Shown: one piece after another, positions 28,343-29,981 of the stretch
Layout: each line of letters opens with the position of its first letter
Numbering within the stretch: position 1 is the first letter of the stretch
NCBI RefSeq assembly: GCF_022213955.1
Contig: NZ_JAKNTW010000005.1
Span: 310,001-374,000, forward strand
DNA: 64,000 nt
Reading direction: 5' to 3'
Origin: Dolomitihabitans soli
GTDB taxonomy: Bacteria > Actinomycetota > Actinomycetes > Streptosporangiales > Streptosporangiaceae
Program-made: the position numbers and the translations under genes
The notes under the pieces: model-generated
What the model saw: only the letters and a program-made list of their open reading frames with translations
Database searches by the model: none
What the model was told of the DNA's origin: nothing

Positions 28343-29563
28343 TCACGGAATGGGGACTTCGGCCCGGGCTCGGTTCCAGGCGAGGGTGGCGGGGATGGCT
28401 GCCGCGATCCCCGCGACGCCCGCGATCGCCAGCCCGTTGGCGGGGCCGGCCCACTCCGCGAGCAGGCCGCCGAGGAGGATGCCCAGACCTTGGACGGCGA
28501 CCAGCGCCGAGGAGGCCAGGCCGATCGCCTGACCCCGCCGGTCCGGCGGCAGGATCCGGACGAACTCCGCGTTCGCCATCACCTGGTAGGAGGTGAGCGC
28601 CCCGGAGACCGTCCACAGCACGAGCAGGACCACGAAGCCGGGCTGTAGCAGGCTCGCGGCGAGGGGCACGCTCGCCGCGATCGCCATCGGGCCCATGAGC
28701 CGCAACCGGGAGTCGAGCGGCACGTATCGCGTCAGCAGGAACACGCCGAGCACGTTGCCCACCGCGACGACCGCCATCAGCACTCCGGCCTCGGTCGTGC
28801 CCAGCCCCAGGGAGGCGGCGTACGGCACCGCGATTCCTTCGGGGATCACATGGAAGGCGGACATCAGGGCCAGCACGAGCAGGCTGCGGAGCGTCGCCGT
28901 ACCCGTGACCAACCGCAGTCCGCCACCGGTGGAGGCGAGCCAGGAGCCCCCCTCGTCCTGCCTGCCCGACGCGGGGCGACGCCGTACGGCGAGCGTGGTG
29001 ATCAGTGCGCAGGCGGCGAACGTCGCCGCGTCGATCACCAGGGAGACGCCGGGCCCGGTGAGGGCCACGATGAGCCCTCCTCCCGCGAACCCGATGAGCG
29101 TCATGAGCTGGCTCGTCAGGTGGTTGACCGCCACGCCGGTCGGGTAGGCGTCGGCGGGCAGGATGTCCGGGAGCATCGCGATGCGGGCGGCCCGTGCCGG
29201 CGATTCGAGCAGTTGCGACGCGAAGACCAGCGCGCACAGCACCGGCAGCGGCACGTCGGGGATGGCGACCAGGGCGATGAGGACCGTCCTGACCAGATCG
29301 CAGGAGATCATCACCTCGCGCCGCGGGTAGCGGTCGGCGAGCCAGCCGAGCAGCGGCCCGCCGAGCAGGGCGGGCACCAGGGTCAGGGCGTAGACGACGG
29401 CGGTCAGCGCGGCGGAACCGGTGCGCTGGTAGGCGATGACGGCCAGCGCCACGCGAGCCAGTTGGTCACCCGCTCGGGAGAGGAGGGCGCCCATCCACAA
29501 CCCGCGGAACTCCGCGTAGCCGAACACCTGCCGGAACCCCGCGCCATGGCCGCGTCGCCGCAT
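28343..29563 (-). CDS. MFS exporter (enterobactin/MFS_3-like)
   Basis: About 406 residues from the ATG of MRRRGHGAG, which has GAGAGGG upstream; an ATG six codons earlier is also possible. Twelve membrane segments in two halves; the A-motif-like loop GWLADRYPRREVM follows segment 2. Family relatives are siderophore and drug exporters. Upstream on the same strand, 76 or so bases away and separated by a G/C-rich hairpin, is a tiny gene for a tandem-repeat peptide; the pair may be one unit. A fragment of a close paralogue lies at 25612-25761. Confidence 0.88.
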   Translation of the reverse strand: MRRRGHGAGFRQVFGYAEFRGLWMGALLSRAGDQLARVALAVIAYQRTGSAALTAVVYALTLVPALLGGPLLGWLADRYPRREVMISCDLVRTVLIALVAIPDVPLPVLCALVFASQLLESPARAARIAMLPDILPADAYPTGVAVNHLTSQLMTLIGFAGGGLIVALTGPGVSLVIDAATFAACALITTLAVRRRPASGRQDEGGSWLASTGGGLRLVTGTATLRSLLVLALMSAFHVIPEGIAVPYAASLGLGTTEAGVLMAVVAVGNVLGVFLLTRYVPLDSRLRLMGPMAIAASVPLAASLLQPGFVVLLVLWTVSGALTSYQVMANAEFVRILPPDRRGQAIGLASSALVAVQGLGILLGGLLAEWAGPANGLAIAGVAGIAAAIPATLAWNRARAEVPIP

Positions 29564-29588
29564 CGTGCCCTCTCTTCGCATAGCCGAT

Positions 29589-29614
29589 GGCGGCGCCCGT
29601 ATCCGGACGCCGCC
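29589..29614 (-). terminator. G/C-rich hairpin between repeat-peptide gene and MFS gene
   Basis: Arms GGCGGCG (29589-29595) and CGCCGCC (29608-29614) with a 12-base loop, without a U-run. Placed between the small peptide gene and the transporter it could act as a partial terminator, attenuator or processing site. Confidence 0.5.
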
Positions 29615-29657
29615 ACCAGGTGTTCACCCGATCACTGCCGCTCGGGGCGGGTTACGG

Positions 29658-29747
29658 TCAGGTCCACTCGTGTTCCGGTGCGCCCCAGTCGTGTTCCGGT
29701 GCGCCCCACTCGTGATCCGGTGCGCCCCAGTCGTTGTCCCGTCGCAT
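29658..29747 (-). CDS. 29-residue peptide of tandem WGAP heptad repeats
   Basis: An ATG (complement of 29745-29747) sits seven bases behind a perfect AGGAGG. The product begins MRRDN and then has three copies of a seven-residue unit, (D/E)-W-G-A-P-(D/E)-H: DWGAPDH, EWGAPEH, DWGAPEH, ending EWT. The DNA repeat period is 21 bases. No signal peptide, no cysteines. It is on the same strand as, and directly upstream of, an MFS exporter. Options are a multi-core precursor peptide, a metal-binding peptide (regular His/acidic spacing), or a regulatory leader peptide for the transporter. I do not recognise it from any named family. Confidence 0.65.
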   Translation of the reverse strand: MRRDNDWGAPDHEWGAPEHDWGAPEHEWT

Positions 29748-29934
29748 GATTTCCTCCTACGTCGTCGTCTCTCTGATTCCTCTGGACGCACTCTAGAAAG
29801 AGCCGTTATGGATCCGCTTTAGGTGTATTTGTCGTACGGGCAGCCGTTCACGGGGGGAGACGAACAGGATCCGGATCTCCCGATCCCGCGCGGTTCCTCA
29901 CCGGCCGGCAAGACCTCCAGCGCGCTCCATTCGC

Positions 29935-29981
29935 GTCAACGTAAGTTGACACGAGAAGGCTCGTCAACTTATGTTGACACC
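29935..29981 (+). promoter_or_regulatory. Twin operators and probable leaderless promoter of DUF998 gene
   Basis: GTCAAC-N4-GTTGAC occurs twice, at 29935-29950 and 29963-29978, starts 28 bases apart. TTGACA at 29946-29951 can be a -35 box and TTATGT at 29970-29975 a -10 box, spacer 18. That would place the transcript start at about 29982, the A of the ATG, so the mRNA is probably leaderless; there is no ribosome site. A dimeric repressor at these sites would block the promoter. Confidence 0.65.

Follow-up and report, generated by a model that had tools for sequence, protein, structure and literature searches.

A family of tiny D-x-x-W-x reading frames beside one clade of MFS pumps: a candidate peptide-plus-exporter cassette in an actinobacterial family

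What does a reading frame of 29 codons do directly ahead of an exporter gene? The question is raised by a 64,000-nucleotide stretch of the Dolomitihabitans soli genome, referred to here as the window, where a first-pass annotation had pointed out an AGGAGG, a micro-ORF with repeats, a hairpin and an MFS gene on the same strand. The sequence, the ORF list, a repeat finder, folding and Pfam confirm all of these elements (Table 1). Since position 29589 falls within the hairpin, the interval given at that time, 29589-29747, amounts to ORF plus hairpin, both of which it spans although it starts inside the latter. The micro-ORF opens with an ATG at 29747, runs for 29 codons and ends in TGA. Its predicted product, MRRDNDWGAPDHEWGAPEHDWGAPEHEWT, consists of four [D/E]-x-[D/E]-W modules with G-A-P after each of the first three, encoded by a 21-bp repeat of 3.4 copies (29664-29734, Tandem Repeats Finder score 121). 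The hairpin begins 38 nt past the stop codon and has 16 pairs; its best 45-nt window reaches -34.0 kcal/mol, which none of 40 shuffles equalled, and a terminator scan of the window found no U-tract terminator there. Pairwise alignment with the nearest relative, G630, suggests that a partly conserved upstream block is likely the promoter region, and no match to the sigma-70 consensus was found for it on the minus strand of the window.

The window pump matches the NCBIfam model TIGR00900 (E 3.4e-46, under that model's cut-off) and scores 41.4 bits against the MefA-type model NF000245, whose cut-off is 675, so that the curated MefA threshold is not reached; the MefA, Tap and EntS models of NCBIfam are distant relatives of this pump. 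The surroundings are ordinary: the pump gene is followed by cydA and cydB, the opposite strand carries a DUF998 gene, and there are genes for a GNAT protein, a MerR regulator and an alcohol dehydrogenase. Just upstream of the plus-strand DUF998 gene, at 29940-29980, there is an inverted GTAAGTTGACA / TGTCAACTTA-type sequence, a possible regulator site, together with a TTGACA-TATGTT promoter match.

A tblastn-style search for the heptad WGAP(D/E)H, as proposed in the first-pass annotation, returned nothing useful. Among 149 relatives (the source genus holds one genome) the heptad found only itself and chance matches, the best of which (G047, E 9e-5) comes from one reading frame through a coiled-coil repeat within an unrelated gene. 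A degenerate W-G-x-P heptad pattern had two matches over the genome contigs, neither a clear relative. One is an Elusimicrobia repeat with stops in that frame; the other, in an actinomycete MAG (L024, 200-290), resembles the heptad of the window, with three HWGSPD-like units sharing a frame that overlaps the beginning of a folP-like one. Over the viral contigs, the pattern W-x-A-P-[DE] had 0 matches.

Because the heptad was without recognisable relatives, the MFS protein was used as the query and the DNA 5' of its orthologues was read. In a first search of 200 family genomes, translation of this upstream DNA revealed tiny ORFs 5' of orthologous pumps, most with a recognisable Shine-Dalgarno (SD) sequence. 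With the G610 pump as query, all 341 family genomes were then searched, which gave 15 genomes at E <= 1e-114, and 14 of them have tiny ORFs at the locus (G003 does not). The next clade, comprising the g62 clade and G038, has them in three of four genomes (G154, G061 and G196, not G038), and two more distant pump loci, G249 and G026, have none. In total, 1-8 tiny D-x-x-W-x ORFs per locus are present at 17 of 21 pump-orthologue loci, a count that includes G196, which has a DDI ending and escapes the automatic motif, and G068, where what reads by eye as a broken pump copy parts the upstream ORF from the intact pump.

This occurrence exceeds chance. Paralogous MFS loci, taken as a control, have tiny ORFs in 0 of 16 cases, and a strict background pattern (a short ORF with SD ending in [D/E]xxWx-stop) was absent from 484,054 strand-bases of control loci, in which a loose pattern (W-x-stop) occurred 22 times, or 0.041 times per 900 nt. 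Among 394 class genomes, pump orthologues (E <= 1e-104 to the G005 pump) are confined to one actinobacterial family, and two pump relatives of 46-48% identity from a plasmid collection have no such tiny ORF. Two models built on the tiny ORFs alone, R1 (run over the 341 family genomes) and R2 (run over the 394 class genomes), gave strong matches solely at arrays already known or confirmed by reading, the new ones being at G610, G068 (downstream of the pump) and G254:C160; multi-module ORFs are missed by these models (G000 gave no match). The weaker matches that were read (12 and 10, in overlapping sets, G610 aside) looked like chance.

Table 1. Features of the window and predicted tiny ORFs at the pump loci (G numbers denote genomes)
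Feature or locus	Position	Strand	Basis or content
Micro-ORF encoding MRRDNDWGAPDHEWGAPEHDWGAPEHEWT	29658-29747	minus	ORF list; frame and modules backed by relatives
Shine-Dalgarno AGGAGG	29753-29758	minus	sequence; 5 nt 5' of micro-ORF ATG
Upstream block CCTAAAG..GGCTCT..CTA...TGC.TCC, likely promoter region	29787-29823	minus	pairwise alignment with G630
Stable hairpin between micro-ORF and MFS gene, without U tract	~29584-29619	minus	folding
MFS exporter gene	28343-29563 (alternative ATG 29581)	minus	Pfam MFS_1 E 1.6e-27, MFS_3 E 6.2e-11
Window			one ORF, four modules
G630 (nearest relative)			MRRDHEWV; one module vs the window's four
G025			MSHRTQWEWG, MRTWEW, MRKRTWDW
G631			MRRMPAAPDNGWSAPDQGWSAPDTSWGAPDSGWAAPDNGWT; ORFs up to 5 modules
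G638			MRQVPGNNGGCPDFDWGCPDYDWS and MRQMPGGKWGCPDYDQHHPDFSWG
G616			MRRDFEWS
G605			MRDIIWN
G610			MRDIIWN, MRDLIWT
G254			eight heptapeptides, MRTTDWL to MRGSDWH
G262			six, MRVGRGYDWA to MRNHRSIEWY
G005			four of MRIRRDVIWN type
G228			two of MRIRRDVIWN type
G177			MRIRRIIDWA
G068			MRKDYSWG 5' of pump; MRIRREIEWG, MRIRRDVVWG, MRIRRDIEWG 3' of pump
G154			MSKDYTWGAPDFVWHAPDYIWM
G061			MRNIVIWNAPDIVWQ
G196			MRKDVIWNAPDIIWNAPDIVWQAPDDI

Comparison of the predicted peptides indicates that the conserved unit of the family is D-x-x-W-x. The heptad named in the first-pass annotation is thus not the conserved unit. As the peptide-hairpin-exporter layout is conserved across the family, the main reading of that annotation holds as a layout. 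The module tally covers 43 ORFs with 61 Trp positions, including three ORFs of a G254 relic, and the invariance of Trp in it is partly by construction because Trp was part of the search criterion. Position -3 relative to Trp is D or E in 38 of the 61 modules and G in 12, and an acid occupies -3 or -1 in 54. The residue before -3 is R in 31, P in 19 and K in 3 (53 of 61), and 39 of the 43 ORFs have R directly after the start Met. After Trp, the next residue is hypervariable (G 18, T 9, N 8, and others), and W-x is followed by a stop in 42 rows (which also hold ORFs ending directly in W), by A-P in 13 and by C-P in 2. Modules without Trp are the last one of G196, one in G638, a degenerate one in the G254 relic and two degenerate ones in G068. 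A metal-binding peptide, suggested earlier from the regular spacing of His and acidic residues, is rejected, as His is not conserved over the 61 Trp positions.

Among 86 within-locus module pairs (not independent of each other, and with G025 and G068 left out), codon positions 1/2/3 differ in 19/23/49 pairs at residue -3 and in 23/16/54 at residue -1, mostly at third positions; the acid positions therefore appear largely kept as amino acids. The corresponding values are 50/51/28 for residue -2 and 57/53/46 for residue +1, where the amino acid is altered in 75 of 78 codon differences. These two codons vary almost only with a change of amino acid, and -2 and +1 therefore seem to be diversified or unconstrained.

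Could the ORF nonetheless be fortuitous, with its 21-bp repeats serving as DNA binding sites or being a neutral tandem repeat? Direct repeats 21 bp apart, or two helical turns, could be regulator sites, and the repeat DNA of the window is open in other frames as well. Against this, G630 has the unit in a single copy, and the window-G630 alignment keeps GGAGG-N-AATC-ATG-CGACG; frame, start, ribosome-binding site (RBS) and codon-position pattern are conserved. Iterons are rejected because what the relatives have in common is a protein motif, encoded by unrelated DNA. The first-pass annotation had looked to homologues with a conserved reading frame and to repeat changes in multiples of three as signs of coding; the homologues do share the frame, and the copies change by whole 21-nt units. 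A chance ORF is hence hardly credible to us.

Across the family, the ORFs range from 6 to 41 codons and come in two forms. Single-module ORFs have 6-10 codons, stop after the module and often stand in tandem, whereas multi-module ORFs have 15-41 codons, with up to five modules per ORF joined via [A/C]-P, always in frame. The arrays of modules stretch over up to about 530 nt. On the pump tree, in which the window pairs with G630 (99/97), the multi-module state changes four times, and at least three of these changes are forced by well-supported branches. Module number also differs between near-identical loci: the pumps of G005 and G228 are 97-98% identical, yet the former has four tiny ORFs and the latter two.

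Losses occur as well. The pump is present without any tiny ORF in G038 and G003, and in G038 the stretch from the tiny-ORF SD region to the pump is lost, as judged by eye. Decay can affect the very module that adjoins the pump: Trp is gone from the last module of G196, and in G068 a degenerate array stands beside the intact pump, whereas the copies elsewhere have stayed whole. The G068 locus (L061) contains relic cassette copies. Upstream of the pump there is a fragment of a broken one, and downstream an array of three ORFs that has its own promoter-like stretch and terminator-like hairpin. The G254:C160 array (L106, about 195957-196095 of the contig), followed by a leader hairpin, occupies a site syntenic with G262, and its pump is deleted just after the start. 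We rejected this orphan array as a standalone system after comparison by eye with G262, and regard it as a relic with a deleted pump because hairpin and pump start follow it.

All 16 leaders folded (G068 was not part of this set) contain a single stable hairpin in the stretch from the last tiny ORF to the pump, and it beats shuffles in nearly all of them: shuffles as good numbered 0/40 in 11 leaders, 1/40 in four and 7/40 in G025 (mean z -3.6). Hairpin sequences differ from clade to clade. No U tract directly follows the hairpins of these leaders, Rfam gave no match, and the 20 segments between tandem ORFs contain no hairpins (mean z +0.10). The distance from stop codon to hairpin varies from 1 to 178 nt, and in a simple duplex test against the 150 nt upstream, the 5' arm found no better partner than it did in shuffled sequence (mean z +0.18; 1 of 16 below -2).

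These observations bear on a cis-regulatory leader, in which ribosome stalling on the D-x-x-W-x ORFs, caused by an exported drug or metabolite or by scarce Trp-tRNA, would control the MFS gene. The ORFs are cis-upstream of the pump with a hairpin in between, and the predicted ORFs look like those of a uORF attenuator in their position, being short, provided with start and SD, and sited 5' of the pump gene. Some begin with MRxR, and in the two g62 loci G154 and G061 the hairpin comes directly after the stop. There are also precedents: Mef(E) is under the control of an 8-codon leader, MTASMRLR (PMC4335068), and uORF attenuation is known in actinomycetes (PMC11550727). Control by stalling, however, calls for a single ORF at a fixed spot ahead of a structure that can switch, and this is not the pattern seen. 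The stop-to-hairpin distance is not fixed, attenuator pairing was not detected, tandem units lack hairpins between them, up to 8 ORFs or 5 modules far from the hairpin would be superfluous, and the module lost in G196 is the last one. Trp-tRNA attenuation in particular would not need the conserved acidic positions, which argue against it. Moreover, many loci already have a regulator of the AraC or SARP kind next to them. We give a leader, of which the stalling type was offered as an alternative in the first-pass annotation, an appreciable though lower probability, because the pump resembles drug exporters and G038 kept its pump after losing the ORFs.

The neighbouring genes speak to a different alternative, a RiPP precursor whose modifying enzyme is encoded elsewhere in the genome and whose finished product is exported by the MFS protein. 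The multi-core layout, the hypervariable core positions and a hairpin between precursor and exporter would suit such a system, and 18-bp precursor genes exist for biarylitides (PMC13417212). Yet Pfam scanning of 47 neighbour proteins found no radical SAM, YcaO, ATP-grasp, lanthionine, ThiF or P450 domain, nor does any maturation enzyme, dedicated protease or immunity gene recur among the neighbours scanned. As the genes around the array and pump pair vary from genome to genome, any modifying enzyme encoded far away would need to be shared by every one of these genomes. We therefore consider a RiPP unlikely.

Regulator genes do occur near several loci. AraC_binding_2/HTH_18 regulators are near the G025, G631, G638 and G177 loci, BTAD/NB-ARC genes (mostly with TPR, of SARP type) are near those of G254, G610, G154, G196, G038 and G177, with G605 added on no more than sequence resemblance; G631 has a short gene of SARP-like type nearby. 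Neither AraC nor BTAD/NB-ARC/TPR regulators were found among the window genes scanned, and several other loci have no BTAD/NB-ARC/TPR genes nearby. With 16-47 BTAD genes per genome in 19 genomes, the chance of one lying within 5 kb of a locus is ~4%. SARP-type regulators beside the cassette (L057, L062, L064, L067, L107, L143, L059) are thus commoner than their genome-wide number suggests, on about three or four independent occasions; we treat this enrichment as a lead rather than a result. At the G025 locus (L055, 10617-12132), a rifampin monooxygenase gene (NF033145, 885 bits vs a cut-off of 800) and a fragment of a macrolide-family glycosyltransferase lie upstream of the array and pump. The monooxygenase gene is preceded by an exact match to a rifamycin-associated element.

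The reading that we favour over a cis-regulatory leader, with somewhat less than even confidence, is a self-contained peptide-plus-exporter cassette, whose tiny D-x-x-W-x peptides are probably made in bulk and pumped out. The window micro-ORF would then be one member of a family that encodes short ribosomal peptides and shares its transcript with an MFS exporter dedicated to them. Their dose could be raised interchangeably, by tandem tiny ORFs with their own RBS and stop or by in-frame copies joined through [A/C]-P, and the hairpin after the last ORF probably gives peptide mRNA in excess over pump mRNA. Ordinary peptidases may remove the Met-Arg start and divide multi-module products, in both cases before D (after R/K or P), so that what the pump would export is a set of D-x-x-W-x pentapeptide variants. 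Product dosage would account for arrays that reach 8 ORFs (G254) and for ORFs that reach 5 modules (G631), and, given the variable module number, the one hairpin and the broken module nearest to it, dosage of a product fits better than a stalling leader. Counting against the cassette are the lack of a recurring maturase, protease or immunity gene among the neighbours scanned, the pumps standing alone in G038 and G003, the nearly always cis-upstream position of the arrays, as a leader would have, the drug-exporter-like pump, and the rifampin monooxygenase gene beside the G025 locus.

A peptide could also act without being the exported product. In macrolide-resistance peptides, from which the idea derives, translation of tiny ORFs clears a ribosome-bound drug, and here the adjoining pump would export it. 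Very short tandem ORFs, each with its own RBS, beside a drug-exporter-like pump count in favour; the multi-module ORFs of relatives, at 15-41 codons, are too long for the mechanism, and we know of no drug-flushing peptide with a conserved acid plus Trp. We regard such drug flushing as very improbable.

For the layout of the proposed cassette, the closest working parallel is the microcin C operon. Its order is mccA, terminator, mccB and the mccC pump, and ribosome binding to mccA induces termination (PMC6495379). Like the family, with its MRDIIWN, MRGFDWN and other peptides, hairpin and MFS pump, it combines an SD AGGAGG and a heptapeptide gene of MR type (MRTGNAN) with a hairpin and an exporter further downstream (PMC6495379). 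However, the family keeps no C-terminal Asn and has many last residues, its lengths of 6-41 codons are not those of a fixed heptapeptide, no ThiF-like MccB was found among the 47 neighbour proteins scanned with Pfam, and its copies are in tandem or multi-core, whereas MccA is without D-x-x-W-x. With neither a constant final Asn nor an MccB found in the vicinity, the family is not a microcin C system.

The other known systems share single features with the family. Leaders of the Mef(E)L/erm type are likewise very short ORFs 5' of an MFS-type exporter (PMC4335068), but the family has no conserved MRLR stall motif or detectable alternative pairing, and its modules, with conserved acid and Trp, are multiplied in tandem or in frame. 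The whiB7/wblC attenuators are uORFs 5' of resistance-type genes in actinomycetes (PMC11550727); they differ in the downstream gene, and no terminator/antiterminator pair was found in the family. Biarylitide and other minimal RiPP precursors are tiny Met-first genes that escape automatic detection (PMC13417212), but biarylitides are cross-linked by a dedicated P450, which was not found among the family neighbours scanned. Signalling peptides of the Phr, SHP and ComS type are likewise short, released from a small precursor and exported, but they leave through Sec or PptAB, where the cassette has an MFS exporter, and the cassette has its micro-ORFs in tandem. The TPR-containing SARP neighbours at several loci may be candidate receptors in an RRNPP-type arrangement, as a lead only.

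Within the literature searched (titles and starts of abstracts, with few subscription journals), we found no description of a D-x-x-W-x tiny-ORF family. Genes of 6-10 codons lie below the usual limits of gene callers, and the family would therefore normally go unannotated. The same peptide module is kept via two amplification routes, and it is difficult to see why if the peptide were of no importance. As a plausible though tentative proposal, these ORFs and their pump may represent a new self-contained, maturase-free class of ribosomal peptide system, making hypervariable pentapeptides from tandem 6-10-codon genes or multi-core ORFs served by one MFS pump clade, found so far in a single actinobacterial family, perhaps as strain-specific signals or competition peptides. 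The family offers a testable case for telling micro-peptides that are secreted from leader peptides that regulate. Should the peptide be the product, it would be among the smallest encoded natural products, with variable positions that suggest diversification.
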